Part shown: one piece after another, positions 42,320-48,564 of the stretch | How the letters are laid out: each line of letters opens with the position of its first letter | Numbering within the stretch: position 1 is the stretch's first letter | From: Methanolobus sp. | GTDB taxonomy: Archaea; Halobacteriota; Methanosarcinia; Methanosarcinales; Methanosarcinaceae | Direction: 5' to 3' | DNA length: 64,000 nucleotides | NCBI RefSeq assembly: GCF_016278385.1 | Contig: NZ_JADQBY010000021.1 | Location: 67,619-131,618, forward strand | The notes under the pieces: model-generated | What the model was told of the DNA's origin: nothing | Seen by the model: only the letters and a program-made list of their open reading frames with translations | Database searches by the model: none | Made by a program: the position numbers and the translations under genes

Positions 42320-42473
42320 TTTAATTCCTCAGTATAAAATTCAAAAACATCTGATAGATATTTGAGCTACCAATATTTATGGTTTTATCTTCTAGTTCAA
42401 AAAATGATGCATTAGCACAACTCAACTTGAATAGTTTAATATATCTCCTGTGCGTAACCACCAGTTGATAAGT

Positions 42474-42566
42474 GTGTACCGAAAAAAATTTCCCACTTCA
42501 TTTGACACATTTCTGACTTGCATAGCAGGCAAGGAAACATGGCGGGAGGACTTGCGACTTGGCTGA
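42474..42566 (+). other. Out-of-frame N-terminal segment of the first CobD paralogue
   Basis: A leaderless-looking GTG at 42474, about 35 bases after the TATA-like TTTAATATAT, opens a frame MYRKKFPTSFDTFLTCIAGKE and then runs into a stop. Removing a single A from the GGAAAC at about 42535 joins it in frame to HGGRTCDLAEKLNIP and places His22-Gly23-Gly24 exactly where they stand in the second paralogue (PCAHGG). This identifies a one-base insertion that separates the first 21 codons from the rest of the gene. Confidence 0.65.
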
Positions 42567-43965
42567 AAAATTAAACATACCTGAATCAGATATTCTTGAT
42601 TTCAGCTCAAACATAAATCCTCTGGGCACACCCTTCAATTTTCATGAGGATAAAATAGACCTTGAGAGGGTTTTTTTTGCTTCGATTGAGAAATTAGGTC
42701 AATATCCTGACAATAGATATCTTGAACTCAGGAATGCTGCTGCTGCTTTTGCCGGTCATGGAGTTTCCTTTGAAAACATAGTTCTAGGCAATGGTTCATG
42801 TGAGTTATTGCACCTTGCAATACAATCTGTTGTACAAGAAGATGATTTGATAATCGTTCCTTCTCCTTCATCCGGTCAATATCGACATATATCTGAACTT
42901 TGTGGTGCCCGTATCCATTCATTTACTTCAGCGGAGATTCTGAATCTTCCTAAAATGACACTGGACAGAGCAAGAGTAGTAATTATTCAGAACCCGAATG
43001 ACCCCACTGGTGAACTGTTATCAAAGGATGCACTGCTCAATCTTGCAAAGAAGTGTGCTGAACATGGTACTTTGCTCATAGTTGATGAATCATCTATAGA
43101 ACTTGCGAATCCTGATATGAGTATAGTTGATATGACATTGGATAATGATCATCTTCTGGTTATCAGGTCTGTTTCAGATATCATTTCTATTCCTGGTATC
43201 AGGCTGGCCTATGGTATTGCATCCAGGTCCATGGCAGGCATTTTAAATGCTGCTCGTCTTTCATGGAATATAGGTGCAACAGAAGAAGCAATTGGAATTG
43301 CATTCTTTTCAATGGACGGTGGACCGAATTCAAAGTACCTGTCAAAGGCAAGGGCTTTAATTGAAAAAGAAAGACAATACATAATCAAACGCTTTTCAGG
43401 CATCTATGGTTTTGATCCGGTTAAAAGCAGTGCAAATTACCTGCTTGTGGATGTCAGGGACCTTTTCCTGGACTCGGTAAGACTTACAGAAGGACTTGCT
43501 TCTCATGGTATAATTATCCGTGAGTGCAGTGATTTTTTCAATGGTGAAAAAAGATATGTAAGAATATCTGTAAAGCCCAGAAATGATTTTGAAAAACTGA
43601 TTCGAACTCTTAACGATGTATTTGCCGAGTTAAGCAGGGAAGATGCCAGGGAAAAACTTGAAGAAACCATTGAACATGGTGGTGCAGCTTCTGCAGGTCG
43701 CGGTTCCTGTGAATATTATCCATGTCATTTCGCAGGTCAGGACTGTACTTTCTGTTTCTGTCCATTTTATGCTTGTGAAGAAGAGAGAACAGGCGGCAAA
43801 TGGATTGAAAGTTCCACAGGCGGACAGGTATGGAGTTGTGAATATTGTACATTATTGCATAGACCAAAAGTCGCCAAGATGGTGCTTGATGCACTGATGG
43901 CAGACGGAGACACTGACGATAATATAAGGAGGGCATGGAAGGAAATCATTTTGCCGCAACTTTGA
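42559..43965 (+). CDS. Degenerate CobD paralogue lacking the PLP lysine, with intact Cys-rich C-terminal domain
   Basis: This is an aminotransferase-fold protein related to L-threonine-O-3-phosphate decarboxylase (segments NINPLGTPF, LGNGSCELLHLAI, NPNDPTG). Where the next gene has RSLTKSFAIPG with the PLP lysine, this copy reads RSVSDIISIPG, so Lys is Asp; the DEAY Tyr is also Ser (DESSIELA). The C-terminal Cys-rich domain (YYPCHFAGQDCTFCFCPFY ... WSCEYC) is fully kept. The only start in frame is a TTG; the true N-terminus lies upstream behind a one-base frameshift. It is therefore either a decaying copy or a protein that retains only the C-terminal function. Confidence 0.75.
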   Translation: MAEKLNIPESDILDFSSNINPLGTPFNFHEDKIDLERVFFASIEKLGQYPDNRYLELRNAAAAFAGHGVSFENIVLGNGSCELLHLAIQSVVQEDDLIIVPSPSSGQYRHISELCGARIHSFTSAEILNLPKMTLDRARVVIIQNPNDPTGELLSKDALLNLAKKCAEHGTLLIVDESSIELANPDMSIVDMTLDNDHLLVIRSVSDIISIPGIRLAYGIASRSMAGILNAARLSWNIGATEEAIGIAFFSMDGGPNSKYLSKARALIEKERQYIIKRFSGIYGFDPVKSSANYLLVDVRDLFLDSVRLTEGLASHGIIIRECSDFFNGEKRYVRISVKPRNDFEKLIRTLNDVFAELSREDAREKLEETIEHGGAASAGRGSCEYYPCHFAGQDCTFCFCPFYACEEERTGGKWIESSTGGQVWSCEYCTLLHRPKVAKMVLDALMADGDTDDNIRRAWKEIILPQL

Positions 43966-44028
43966 TCCATCGTATGGCTCAACTAAACAGGTTAATATAT
44001 TTCCTATTTGCTACATGCTTTGATTACT

Positions 44029-45522
44029 GTGACAGACCAAAGATCACCTCTCCCGGTAAAGAAATATCTTTTAAGCCTTGAGCCATGTGCTCATGGCGGA
44101 CTGATTAGAAAAAGTTCCCAGAAATACGGGATTCCAGAGTCAGAAATGCTGGATGCAAGTGCAAGCCTGAATCCTCTTGGAACACCCTTTGAACATCCGG
44201 ATTCGGAACTTGATCTTCAGGACCTTCTCAGGACAGGACTTGAAAAACTGGAACAATATCCTGATAACCGTTATCTCGAATATAGAACAGCTGCAGCTTC
44301 TTTTGTAGGTATGGGCACAACATATGAGAACATAGTTCCCGGCAACGGCTCTACCGAAATAATCCGGCTGGTTGCAGAGTGCGTTATAGCTGAAGGGGAT
44401 GTTGTTCTTATTCCAAAGCCTACTTTCAGTGAATATGAGATGCAATGCAAAGTAATGGGTGCAGAGATCAAATACGTTGACCAGGAAGATATCTTCGATC
44501 TCGACGGTAAAACGCTCGATGAAGCCAAAATTATTTTTGTGTGTAATCCCAATAATCCGACTGGTAAATTATTCTTAAAGGAGCAGATCGAGGAGCTTGC
44601 AGAGAAATGTGCAACTCATAAGACTATCCTCTTTATTGACGAGGCCTACATTGAACTTGCAGACCCGCAGCAGAGTGTTGCATATCTTGTTGAGGGCAAC
44701 GACTATCTTTTCATCCAGCGTTCCCTTACGAAATCCTTTGCAATTCCTGGTATTAGAATGGGTTTTGGAGTAGCCTCAAGGAAATTTGCACGTGTGCTTA
44801 ATAATGCAAGGCTTTCCTGGAACATGGGATGTGTTTCAGATACTATTGCAACTGCTCTTTTGAATATGGAAGGCGGGGCAAACAGCAAGTATCTCAGAGA
44901 TTCAAGGGATTTCATAGCAAAGGAACGTGAGTTCCTCATGCAAAAGCTTTCACGCAGGGGTTTCAAACCCATCGAGAGCAGTGTAAATTACATTTTTGTT
45001 GACATATCTGATCTTTCTATGAATTCTTCCGAGCTTGCAGAACGCATGGCTTCACATGGTGTACTGATCCGTGATTGCAGTTCTTTTCAGGATATAGGTA
45101 AGGATTACATAAGAATAGCTATACGGAACAGGGAAGAGAATGAGCGTATTGCATCTACTATTCGTCAGGTCATATACGAATGGGGTCGTGAACAGGCAGA
45201 ATTCCAACTAGGGGAAAATATCAAGGTAGCTTCAGACTGTGGTCGCAGGGGCAGTAATACAGACTGTGATTATTATCCATGTCATTTTGAAGGACAGGAT
45301 TGTACTTTCTGTTTCTGTCCGTTTTACCCGTGTGAGGATTCCCGTACCGGAGGCAGTTGGGTGGAAAGTTCTAGTGGAGGGAAGGTATGGAGCTGTCTTA
45401 ATTGTAACATAGTCCATGAGGAGAAAGTCGTTGATGAATTGTTGTCAGTGTTTACTACCGATGGGCTTGATGAGAAGAGCATAAAGAAAGCGTGGGAACA
45501 CGTCATGGAGACTAACTTATGA
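44029..45522 (+). CDS. cobD: L-threonine-O-3-phosphate decarboxylase CobD with Cys-rich C-terminal domain
   Basis: This type I PLP enzyme has a complete active site: NPNNPTG, FIDEAYIELADP and the lysine in RSLTKSFAIPGIRMG. The last 80 residues form a Cys/His-rich domain (YYPCHFEGQDCTFCFCPFY, WSCLNCNIVH). The Methanosarcina mazei homologue has, to my knowledge, been described as a bifunctional L-threonine kinase/decarboxylase. The product, aminopropanol phosphate, is joined to adenosylcobyric acid by CbiB, encoded next with a four-base overlap. The start is set at the GTG about 33 bases after TTAATATATTT, implying a near-leaderless message; the listed TTG is less likely. Confidence 0.9.
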   Translation: MTDQRSPLPVKKYLLSLEPCAHGGLIRKSSQKYGIPESEMLDASASLNPLGTPFEHPDSELDLQDLLRTGLEKLEQYPDNRYLEYRTAAASFVGMGTTYENIVPGNGSTEIIRLVAECVIAEGDVVLIPKPTFSEYEMQCKVMGAEIKYVDQEDIFDLDGKTLDEAKIIFVCNPNNPTGKLFLKEQIEELAEKCATHKTILFIDEAYIELADPQQSVAYLVEGNDYLFIQRSLTKSFAIPGIRMGFGVASRKFARVLNNARLSWNMGCVSDTIATALLNMEGGANSKYLRDSRDFIAKEREFLMQKLSRRGFKPIESSVNYIFVDISDLSMNSSELAERMASHGVLIRDCSSFQDIGKDYIRIAIRNREENERIASTIRQVIYEWGREQAEFQLGENIKVASDCGRRGSNTDCDYYPCHFEGQDCTFCFCPFYPCEDSRTGGSWVESSSGGKVWSCLNCNIVHEEKVVDELLSVFTTDGLDEKSIKKAWEHVMETNL

Positions 45523-46499
45523 TCCTGCCGGTACAGGCTGATGCAAGCGAACTTGTAATTGTATTGCTGCTGGCCTATGCCCTAGATCTGGTATTCTGTG
45601 AGCCACCTGCTGCAATTCATCCCGTGGTGTGGATGGGCAGGTTAATAGCCTTTTTCAAAAAGAATGTTCCAAAGACAAACAGGAAGCTCTATGGAATATT
45701 TATGGGACTTGTTACTATATTATTTGGTGCCCTCATAGCATATGTTGTATTATATTTTATGGGGATTGAAAGTATTCCATCACCACTGCGTTATCTTGTT
45801 GCAGCTTATTTCCTTAAGGCAACCTTTGCGATACGCTGTCTCTATGGTGCTGCTGATGAGGTAAGAACAGAACTGGATGCAGGAAGACTTGATGGTGCAA
45901 GGCAAAAACTCTCTATGTATGTAAGCAGAGATACATCAAAACTTGATGAGAACCACGTTTCATCAGCAATCATTGAAACAACATCAGAGAACTATGTAGA
46001 TGGGATTCTTTCACCTCTGTTGTTCTACGCATGTTTCGGACCTTTCGGATTGATTGCAGCATATGTATTTAAGGCAACAAGCACCCTTGATTCCATGGTT
46101 GGATATACAGATGAGCGCCACCGGGATATAGGTTGGTTCTCTGCAAAGCTGGATGATGTACTCAACTGGCTACCTGCACGTATCTCTGTATTTTTCCTTT
46201 CTGCTGCAACGCTGGTTGTCGGTCTCTTTTACCGTAAGGTAAAAGTGCCTGATTTTAAAAGCGCATTCAAAAGTGGATTTGGTGATGGATTGAAAACACC
46301 CTCTCCAAATTCAGGTTATCCAATGGCATCAATAGCCGGTGCACTCAGGATAAAACTTGAAAAACCAAATACCTACGTCCTTGGTGATGGTTTTACTTAT
46401 CCTAAGTCTGACGATATCAAACTAACCAGTTGGATTATTTTGATAGCATCGTTATTTGCAATTATTGTATCTTTGTTTATAATTACAGCATATTCTTGA
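45519..46499 (+). CDS. cbiB: Adenosylcobinamide-phosphate synthase CbiB
   Basis: This integral membrane protein (326 residues) has the family motifs LDLVFCEPPAAIHPVVWMGRLI, SRDTSKLDENHVSSAIIETTSENYVDGILSPL and NSGYPMASIAGAL. It couples aminopropanol phosphate to adenosylcobyric acid in the cell membrane. Its ATG overlaps the cobD stop, indicating translational coupling. In bacteria the same protein is called CobD, which can cause naming confusion. Confidence 0.96.
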   Translation: MILPVQADASELVIVLLLAYALDLVFCEPPAAIHPVVWMGRLIAFFKKNVPKTNRKLYGIFMGLVTILFGALIAYVVLYFMGIESIPSPLRYLVAAYFLKATFAIRCLYGAADEVRTELDAGRLDGARQKLSMYVSRDTSKLDENHVSSAIIETTSENYVDGILSPLLFYACFGPFGLIAAYVFKATSTLDSMVGYTDERHRDIGWFSAKLDDVLNWLPARISVFFLSAATLVVGLFYRKVKVPDFKSAFKSGFGDGLKTPSPNSGYPMASIAGALRIKLEKPNTYVLGDGFTYPKSDDIKLTSWIILIASLFAIIVSLFIITAYS

Positions 46500-46532: not shown

Positions 46533-47129
46533 GTGATGGCAATGAAATTATCGGATATTGAATCAGAAGACCGGAAAAAAGACCAGTCAAAAGAACTGGA
46601 AGGTGAGATTACCAGGGATATTATTGAGATCCTTGAAGAGGAAGGAATAACAGTCCAGATGCTTGTTGACGCTGCACTGGAATTATATGCACCTCACCCG
46701 GGCATTGAAACTAAAGAACTTGCAGAGGCAAAGTTCCTTGATGAGCTTAATATTGCTATTTCCGATCCAAACCTCTGTCTACTGATATATTCAGGAATAT
46801 TACTGGAAAAAGAAGGCAGGCAGGGTAGATTACCTAACATCAGCAAAAGCTCTTATGAAAAGGATTTGACTTTTATAATTGCAGATGAGGTTCTTGGAAT
46901 GAGTATTTCCAAATATATCAGTGGTGATAAGGGTATGTTTGAATTCGTGCGTTTTGACAAGATGAAACCGGGAATTCTGGCAGAGCTTGGTCCTTTTATG
47001 GATGATATAATAGGAGGACTTATTGGTGGAGTGTCAGCTAATATGTACACAAGGGCAATGGCAGAAGCGGCTGCTTCAGCAAAGAAGCGCGAGACTAAAG
47101 AATCTAAAAGTGATGTGATTGCAGGATGA
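46533..47129 (+). CDS. cobZ: Alpha-ribazole-5'-phosphate phosphatase CobZ
   Basis: A hydrophilic N-terminus leads into a PgpA-like region (ELEGEITRDIIEILEEEGITVQMLVDAALELYAPHPGIETKELAEAKF) and a C-terminal segment ADEVLGMSISKYISGDKGMFEFVRFDKMKPGIL. The match to the M. mazei CobZ type, the archaeal non-orthologous replacement of CobC, and the position between cbiB and cobS support the call. It removes phosphate from alpha-ribazole phosphate or adenosylcobalamin 5'-phosphate. Its stop overlaps the cobS start by four bases. Confidence 0.88.
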   Translation: MMAMKLSDIESEDRKKDQSKELEGEITRDIIEILEEEGITVQMLVDAALELYAPHPGIETKELAEAKFLDELNIAISDPNLCLLIYSGILLEKEGRQGRLPNISKSSYEKDLTFIIADEVLGMSISKYISGDKGMFEFVRFDKMKPGILAELGPFMDDIIGGLIGGVSANMYTRAMAEAAASAKKRETKESKSDVIAG

Positions 47130-47938
47130 ATTCATTCTTATTAGCTCTTAGATCGAGTTTTGGCTTTCTTTCTACAATTCCCGTAGGAATTACCATGGAG
47201 GGGCTTGATGAGTTCTTCAAAAGGACTTACTTGCATCAGGTGGTTGGCTTAGTCCTTGGTCTTTTAATGGGTGCTGTGGCATACTTGCTCATAAGTTTTA
47301 TTCCAATATCTATAAGTGCTGTACTTATCATTGCTTTTGTTTATTATATTACAGGTCTTAATCATCTGGATGGTGTAGCCGACCTTGGTGACGGATTGAC
47401 TGCACATGGTTCTGTGGAGAAGAAACTGAAAGCCCTGAAAGATATGTCTCTGGGTATAGGTGGAGTTGCATATGCTGCTCTTATCATCATTGCATTCTAT
47501 GCAGCCCTCACTTCGTTATATAGTGAAGCTTCAATTCTGTATTCAACAAGTGCAGATGTGGCACGCATATTCTTTTTTGCAATGTTCGTATCAGAGCTAA
47601 GTGCAATGCAATCCATGCTGACAATTGCTGCATTTGGTAAATCCATACATGAAGGCCTGGGTTCAATACTTATAAACAATACCACAGTACCTAAATACCT
47701 TATAGGGTTTGTAATTGGTAGTATTGCATGCATTGGAGCATCTTCTTATCTTGGTCTTGGAGTAACAGGTATTTTAGCATTTATCGCAGCAATTGTGGCA
47801 ACATTTGTACTACTTAACATAAGCAACAGGCATTTTGGTGGTGTCAATGGTGATGTTATTGGTGCTTCCAATGAAGTTGGAAGGATAATATCATTGATAA
47901 CCATCACGCTGGTATTAATGTACGGAGGTATTGTTTGA
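47126..47938 (+). CDS. cobS: Adenosylcobinamide-GDP ribazoletransferase CobS
   Basis: The protein is a polytopic membrane enzyme of 270 residues. The CobS signature motif TGLNHLDGVADLGDGLTAHGS contains the conserved Asp residues, and GGVNGDVIGASNEVGRIISL is the second conserved region. It joins adenosyl-GDP-cobinamide with alpha-ribazole (phosphate) to finish the cobamide. It overlaps cobZ and cobY by four bases on either side. Confidence 0.96.
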   Translation: MNSFLLALRSSFGFLSTIPVGITMEGLDEFFKRTYLHQVVGLVLGLLMGAVAYLLISFIPISISAVLIIAFVYYITGLNHLDGVADLGDGLTAHGSVEKKLKALKDMSLGIGGVAYAALIIIAFYAALTSLYSEASILYSTSADVARIFFFAMFVSELSAMQSMLTIAAFGKSIHEGLGSILINNTTVPKYLIGFVIGSIACIGASSYLGLGVTGILAFIAAIVATFVLLNISNRHFGGVNGDVIGASNEVGRIISLITITLVLMYGGIV

Positions 47939-48564
47939 ACGCTATAATAATGGCAGGGGGATTTGGAAGCAGGCTTGGTATGGGGGAAAAACCCTGCGTT
48001 GAACTATTAGGTAAACCTCTCATTTCCTATGTGATAGATGTCCTGGTAAGGACAGAAAGTATAGAGGACATATATGTTGCTGTATCTCCTGCAACCCCAA
48101 ATACAGCATCTTTTGTTGAGAATGAATATGATGGAACTGTACAGGTCATCCCTACTGGAGGAGGAAACTATGTTGGTGACATGGTCTATGCGGTAAAAGT
48201 TGCCGGTATCACAGAGCCACTACTTATTCTGATGGCGGATCTTCCGCTTCTTACTCCAGAGCTTCTTGAAAAAGTGATAGATGAGTACAATGTCTGTGGC
48301 AAGCCAGCAATGTCAATTTTCTCCCCTATATATGTTTGCAAAAGTCTGGGTATCAGGCCGGATACAGTTTTTAACTGGGACGGTAAACTGATAGTGCCTT
48401 CAGGAATCAATATACTGGATGGAAGTAATGTTGACCATGAGCAAGATTATGTCAGTTTTGTACTGGAAAACATTGAAATAGCTCTTAATATCAATACTCC
48501 TGAGGACCTTAAAAAGTGTAAGGATATGCTTCTTGAAAGAGGTATGGATCCTATCAAAAACTAA
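47935..48564 (+). CDS. cobY: GTP:adenosylcobinamide-phosphate guanylyltransferase CobY
   Basis: This nucleotidyltransferase of the MobA/GlmU-like fold has the GTP loop IIMAGGFGSRLGMGEKPCVELLGKPL. Its size (209 residues) and lack of a kinase domain identify the archaeal CobY rather than bacterial CobU. The start is a TTG that overlaps the cobS stop. It activates adenosylcobinamide phosphate with GMP for the CobS reaction and is the last gene of the cobamide operon. Confidence 0.94.
   Translation: MNAIIMAGGFGSRLGMGEKPCVELLGKPLISYVIDVLVRTESIEDIYVAVSPATPNTASFVENEYDGTVQVIPTGGGNYVGDMVYAVKVAGITEPLLILMADLPLLTPELLEKVIDEYNVCGKPAMSIFSPIYVCKSLGIRPDTVFNWDGKLIVPSGINILDGSNVDHEQDYVSFVLENIEIALNINTPEDLKKCKDMLLERGMDPIKN

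Follow-up and report, generated by a model that had tools for sequence, protein, structure and literature searches.

Conserved Lys-less CobD paralogues

On comparative sequence evidence, the Lys-less CobD copies of Methanolobus, Methanomethylovorans and Methanohalophilus are conserved pseudoenzymes and not genes in ongoing decay, since such a copy occurs in every genome examined of the three genera, its Cys/His-rich PF04071 domain is kept and it is under purifying selection. Because the cofactor centre has been lost and the metal domain at the tail retained on at least two independent occasions, the Lys-less copy very probably fulfils a separate function, most likely that of assisting or regulating the catalytically competent CobD. 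The case described here, copy A, lies in a window of 64,000 nucleotides, the whole stretch of DNA analyzed, from the 2.88 Mb genome of a methanogen of the genus Methanolobus; Methanolobus species are also its nearest relatives judged by this locus.

Gene cluster and upstream region

Copy A and the Lys-containing copy B stand head to tail and are followed by cbiB, a PgpA-like gene, cobS and a probable cobY (Table 1), which places copy A in, or adjoining, the cbiB-cobS gene cluster. The preliminary description of this DNA had reported two adjacent CobD paralogues, and this is borne out by 45.6% identity over 472 aligned residues and by the match of both proteins to PF04071. Its statement that the two align along their length holds for most of the sequence, but not for the first ~28 codons, where no alignment is obtained because the start frame of copy A is broken in this genome.

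According to the upstream alignment, the two copies apparently have separate promoters. The block CACAACTCAACTTGAATAGTTTAATATA ahead of copy A is strongly conserved across Methanolobus, extends beyond a simple TATA box and is unchanged in this genome despite the broken start; it is a possible regulator site. No RNA element upstream of copy A was matched in Rfam.

Table 1. Features of the CobD locus (positions in the window)
Feature	Position	Strand	Evidence or remark
Copy A, Lys-less CobD paralogue; longest readable ORF, 468 aa, TTG start	42559..43965	+	ORF, TIGR01140, PF04071, AF2 model
Copy B, Lys+ CobD with Cys-rich domain; translation probably from GTG 44029, at residue 8 of the listed ORF	44008..45522	+	
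cbiB (adenosylcobinamide-phosphate synthase)	45519..46499	+	PF03186
PgpA-like gene, probable cobZ phosphatase	46533..47129	+	PF04608; cobZ inferred
cobS (cobalamin-5-phosphate synthase)	47126..47938	+	PF02654
NTP transferase, probable cobY	47935..48564	+	PF12804; cobY from context
Conserved promoter block upstream of copy A, CACAACTCAACTTGAATAGTTTAATATA, with TATA-like box TTTAATATA	42416..42443	+	Methanolobus upstream alignment
Remnant of the relatives' start: GTG 42474, frame-shifted by one extra A, ending at TGA 42564-42566	42474..42566	+	
GAT (Asp) at the PLP-lysine position of copy A (RSVSDIISIPG)	43177..43179	+	alignment
AAA, PLP lysine of copy B (RSLTKSFAIPG)	44731..44733	+	alignment
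Cys/His-rich domain of copy A, residues 383-448	43705..43902	+	PF04071
Cys/His-rich domain of copy B	45253..45453	+	PF04071

Loss of the PLP site

As noted in the preliminary description, the PLP-lysine position is occupied by Asp in copy A and by Lys in copy B. The losses had been thought to comprise this Lys and the Tyr of DEAY; the change of DEAY to DESS is indeed found in copy A, but the PLP-stacking aromatic is lost too (PTF to PSS). Copy A is still recognized as a fold-type I aminotransferase (PF00155, 4e-34). With the CobD equivalog TIGR01140 it scores 219.6 bits, below the curated cut-off of 290.55, and copy B scores 296.8 bits, above it. The AF2 model of copy A, built from 53 sequences, has a mean pLDDT of 85.5; where the Cys-rich domain begins, around residues 381-402, the value drops to less than 50. 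Among PDB structures the model matches best the S. enterica CobD entries 1lkc, 1lc8 and 1lc7 (TM 0.87 to 1lkc, normalised by target), and the CobD fold is thus predicted to survive.

The same features were followed through 37 aligned Lys-less rows (27 Methanolobus, 6 Methanomethylovorans and 4 Methanohalophilus). The position of Lys216 of S. enterica is never Lys, either in these rows or in the eight Methanohalophilus copies: the 27 Methanolobus genomes have Asn (24), Asp (1), Gly (1) or Arg (1), and the six Methanomethylovorans have His. Most Methanohalophilus copies carry a Lys one position upstream; no replacement Lys conserved across the Lys-less groups was found in the 37 rows. In every row the stacking Phe (S. 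enterica F108) is gone and the DEA motif has become DES (or NES). Taken together with the absent lysine, this supports the earlier proposal that copy A would be unable to act as an ordinary PLP decarboxylase.

Other parts of the pocket are retained to an extent that depends on the genus. Asp185, Ser213, Arg224, Tyr56, R323 and R337 (S. enterica numbering), whose roles are presumed from CobD/HisC structures, are present in all Methanolobus Lys-less copies. R337, the alpha-carboxylate Arg, is kept in 37/37 rows, and the second substrate Arg is R in 27/27 Methanolobus copies and R or K elsewhere. Tyr56 is Tyr in all 33 Methanolobus and Methanomethylovorans copies and Phe in most Methanohalophilus rows. 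Much of the pocket is lost in Methanohalophilus and Methanomethylovorans (Arg224, Asn156, Ser85 and partly His8), Arg224 being missing from Methanomethylovorans and from most Methanohalophilus copies. The substitutions A187S, G226A/S and A339S (S. enterica positions) recur in both independent Lys-less groups at sites that are nearly invariant in Lys+ enzymes, which looks like parallel remodelling of an empty cofactor pocket.

Distribution and independent origins

A Lys-less copy was found in 27/27 Methanolobus, 6/6 Methanomethylovorans and 8/8 Methanohalophilus genomes, and each of these 41 genomes also has a Lys+ copy. The two are neighbours throughout Methanolobus (27) and Methanomethylovorans (6); the tandem Lys-less copy is therefore conserved in close relatives, a point that the preliminary description had proposed to check, although the substituting residue is mostly Asn in Methanolobus and Asp only once. 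In Methanohalophilus (8/8), the Lys-less copy stands directly before a cbiB-like gene; in genomes that have both copies on a single contig, the Lys+ copy lies at a distance of ~20-26 kb. Two Lys+ CobD copies occupy one locus in Methanococcoides and genus g3 and lie apart in Methanohalobium; Methanosarcina has one copy. CobDs of the same architecture from outside the family (ANME-2, Methanoperedens, Methanocellales and others among those fetched) all keep the Lys, and the only new Lys-less rows in the wider CobD scan were four Methanohalophilus second copies.

Several loci show individual peculiarities. A cobY-like NTP transferase gene lies between the two Lys+ cobD copies in Methanococcoides (L068:4070-4675); in the window this gene comes after cobS. 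One Methanococcoides genome has its second Lys+ cobD split into two overlapping frames (L070:2103-3610), by frameshift or assembly error, and in one Methanolobus genome a short contig, which may be contamination, holds part of a third Lys+ CobD.

In a tree of 50 rows, calculated under a mixture model with the lysine column left out, the Methanolobus and Methanomethylovorans Lys-less copies form one clade (100/100), and those of Methanohalophilus nest with the Lys+ second copies of Methanococcoides (100/99). A single origin for all Lys-less copies was rejected: they form one clade in 0% of bootstraps, with a p-AU of 0.00023. The trees and the AU test require that the lysine was lost at least twice independently. 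The CobD tree has long branches, yet gene order agrees with a separate Methanohalophilus origin, the Lys-less copy of that genus and the second copy of Methanococcoides both standing directly before cbiB.

Retention of the Cys/His-rich domain

The Cys-rich domain had been described as equally intact in both copies, which is confirmed by the PF04071 matches (84.9 bits for copy A and 91.8 bits for copy B) and by the presence of all conserved Cys and His residues in copy A. Each of the 26 family-invariant PF04071 columns (26/26) is kept by at least 90% of the 33 Methanolobus and Methanomethylovorans Lys-less copies. The Cys-rich domain has 26 columns that are invariant in Lys+ enzymes, and 25/26 of these show no change in any of the 37 Lys-less rows; for the PLP part, the corresponding figure is 23/91 (Fisher p = 3e-11, with the relatedness of the rows ignored). 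No other single observation points as strongly to the metal domain as the part being maintained, although retention alone does not reveal its function.

Selection was estimated from codon models (IQ-TREE omega), with the PLP and C-terminal parts taken separately. For Methanolobus and Methanomethylovorans, dN/dS in the PLP part is 0.12-0.17 for copy A vs 0.05-0.10 for copy B, and in the C-terminal part 0.04-0.08 vs 0.06-0.14; owing to high pairwise pS (for copy A, 0.4-0.7), the absolute values are rough. In Methanohalophilus, the values for the PLP and C-terminal parts are 0.213 and 0.131 for the Lys-less copy and 0.111 and 0.108 for the Lys+ copy. The comparison of N- and C-terminal halves called for in the preliminary description thus gives the lower value for the C-terminal part of copy A, with both parts under purifying selection, and the codon estimates show such selection throughout the Lys-less copies. 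Absence of copy A from close relatives, or decay of its C-terminal domain there, had been named as the marks of a pseudogene; instead, copy A is found in every close relative, and the C-terminal domain is its best-preserved part.

Gene conversion was considered as an explanation for the unchanged C-terminal domain and rejected; no clear case of it is seen, third-position synonymous identity between A and B being 0.526 within and 0.504 between genomes (s.d. 0.08). One locus stands apart, with a value of 0.74.

Methanosarcinales carry PF04071 as a fusion with CobD, and many archaea from other groups of the phylum carry it joined to CbiZ (adenosylcobinamide amidohydrolase); for two proteins the CbiZ fusion was confirmed with Pfam. 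Short open frames of ~120-150 aa, apparently stand-alone, contain the domain as well. Since it is joined to CbiZ or stands alone in other archaea, the domain is not tied to one chemistry and is not a kinase domain. These fusions place it at the aminopropanol/cobinamide node of cobamide metabolism and suggest a common role there. Tavares et al. (2018 and 2019) are said to have found the Cys-rich domain unnecessary for the M. mazei kinase and to have assigned it a regulatory or metallocentre role.

Proposed role and alternative explanations

There is, in our estimation, an even chance that copy A is a conserved CobD-family pseudoenzyme maintained in order to bring its metal domain to the CobD/CbiB step, as a non-catalytic subunit or as a regulator. 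In the most likely form of this arrangement, copy A would pair with the Lys+ CobD as a heterodimer, by analogy with LCB1 and LCB2, and would supply residues acting across the dimer interface, such as Tyr56 (Salmonella numbering), whose cross-subunit role we presume from HisC/CobD structures. Each A-B dimer would then hold one active site, tuned by redox or metal state, and the metal domain of copy A would act on the CobD/CbiB step. A scaffold or heterodimer had already been put forward in the preliminary description, and it is compatible with all findings. Counting against the proposed role are the distance of about 25 kb between the Methanohalophilus copies and the mostly Phe residue at Tyr56 there, the apparently separate promoters of A and B, and the start lost in this genome. 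A complex at this step is plausible because aminopropanol attachment in Pseudomonas denitrificans has been attributed to a complex that includes the CobD and CbiB counterparts (PMC6249242). More tentatively, and with a probability clearly below even, a bifunctional B12-pathway enzyme may repeatedly have given rise, once its gene was duplicated, to a heteromer in which one subunit holds PLP and is catalytic and the other is a PLP-free pseudoenzyme whose metal domain controls the CobD/CbiB step.

Copy A could alternatively be a subfunctionalised L-threonine kinase that has dropped the decarboxylase half of an enzyme reportedly bifunctional in M. mazei. A pocket for L-Thr, Thr-P or phosphate may survive, since the substrate arginines are retained and Methanolobus keeps the PLP-phosphate cup (Ser213 and Arg224, 27/27). 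However, the losses in Methanohalophilus and Methanomethylovorans extend to much of this pocket, and the selection signal lies in the Cys-rich domain, which the M. mazei kinase reportedly does not need. Furthermore, copy B has everything found in single-copy enzymes, so there would be no kinase gap to fill. The kinase step allowed for copy A in the preliminary description is thus possible but less favored, given that the intact domain also occurs with CbiZ or alone, and we consider it unlikely.

Distinctly unlikely is a stand-alone apo-sensor homodimer that would respond to Thr-P, aminopropanol phosphate, cobinamide, metal or redox state and regulate a partner other than CobD. The retained ligand Arg, the invariant metal domain and the short PF04071 frames would suit such a sensor; no DNA-binding or signalling domain was found in copy A, however, and its genomic setting points to the cobamide pathway itself.

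The start of copy A raises the question of decay in this genome. Methanolobus relatives begin the gene at a GTG encoding VYRKNFPLHLKHYLLALQARKHGGR (upstream alignment), and the start given in the preliminary description, 42474, is this GTG, but its frame cannot be read through here. A run of seven A near the start replaces the A6 of the relatives compared, the ancestral frame contains TGA and TAG codons before the HGG motif, and the homologous long frame is open only from 42526. A sequencing error could account for the extra A, but hardly for both stops. Judged from its reading frames, copy A must either restart at TTG 42559 or be newly crippled. This TTG is the only ATG, GTG or TTG start near the 5' end of the long frame, is preceded by GGGAGG at 42544 (9 nt upstream), overlaps the end of the short frame from GTG 42474 and could serve for a restart of translation. 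We see only a slim chance that copy A, in this genome at least, has become a pseudogene undergoing decay: the broken start and the drift of the PLP-lysine position among N, D, G, R and H would fit decay, but a candidate restart is on hand, 468 further codons are open and the C-terminal residues are unchanged. Moreover, the trio that includes this copy A has dN/dS values of 0.103 (PLP) and 0.054 (C-terminal), not above the 0.13-0.14 and 0.05-0.08 of its relatives, so the rest of the frame is without relaxation, and the other Lys-less copies are long open frames.

That copy A still works as a PLP or PMP enzyme, through another lysine or a non-covalent cofactor, is highly improbable: Asp185, Ser213 and Arg224 persist in Methanolobus and most Methanohalophilus copies have the upstream Lys, but the stacking Phe is lost in 37/37, Arg224 is missing outside Methanolobus in most copies and no replacement Lys is shared across groups.

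Relation to known systems

The CobD of Methanosarcina mazei (MM2060) is reportedly an L-Thr kinase / L-Thr-P decarboxylase with a metallocentre domain. Copy A shares with CobDs of this type the domain order Aminotran_1_2 then PF04071 and is ~44% identical to the single-copy CobDs of the Methanosarcina group; what sets it apart from them is the loss of the PLP lysine, of the stacking Phe and of the DEA motif, together with the second, Lys+ copy alongside.

Serine palmitoyltransferase offers an established heterodimer of the same fold type, in which LCB1 is without the PLP lysine (PMC3794620). As in the CobD pair, a Lys-less paralogue is conserved next to a Lys+ one in a fold-type I PLP pair; unlike LCB1/LCB2, the CobD pair has metal domains, arose at least twice in one archaeal family and is a putative rather than an established heterodimer. 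Activation by a catalytically dead paralogue has been demonstrated for the trypanosomatid AdoMetDC prozyme (PMC5201418) and the dead DHS paralogue (PMC3663545). There too the dead paralogue is conserved with an active enzyme, but the folds and pathways are others, and for the Lys-less CobD a helper role is putative. Haloferax has two CobD paralogues, cobD1 and cobD2 (HVO_0591/HVO_0593), in a cobamide gene cluster (PMC8305020); related haloarchaeal cobDs, unlike copy A, keep the Lys where the motif was readable. The haloarchaeal genomes drawn mostly have one CobD, and no PF04071 match was obtained for that haloarchaeal family among the genomes listed. A literature search found no paper on a Lys-less CobD.

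The Lys-less copies are similar enough to CobD to be named threonine-phosphate decarboxylase in annotation, an ordinary role that they cannot have. The parallel loss of one cofactor lysine with the metal domain untouched amounts to a natural experiment that separates the functions of archaeal CobD, and the Lys-less copies provide a direct handle on the role of the Cys-rich metallocentre domain and on the location of the threonine kinase site.
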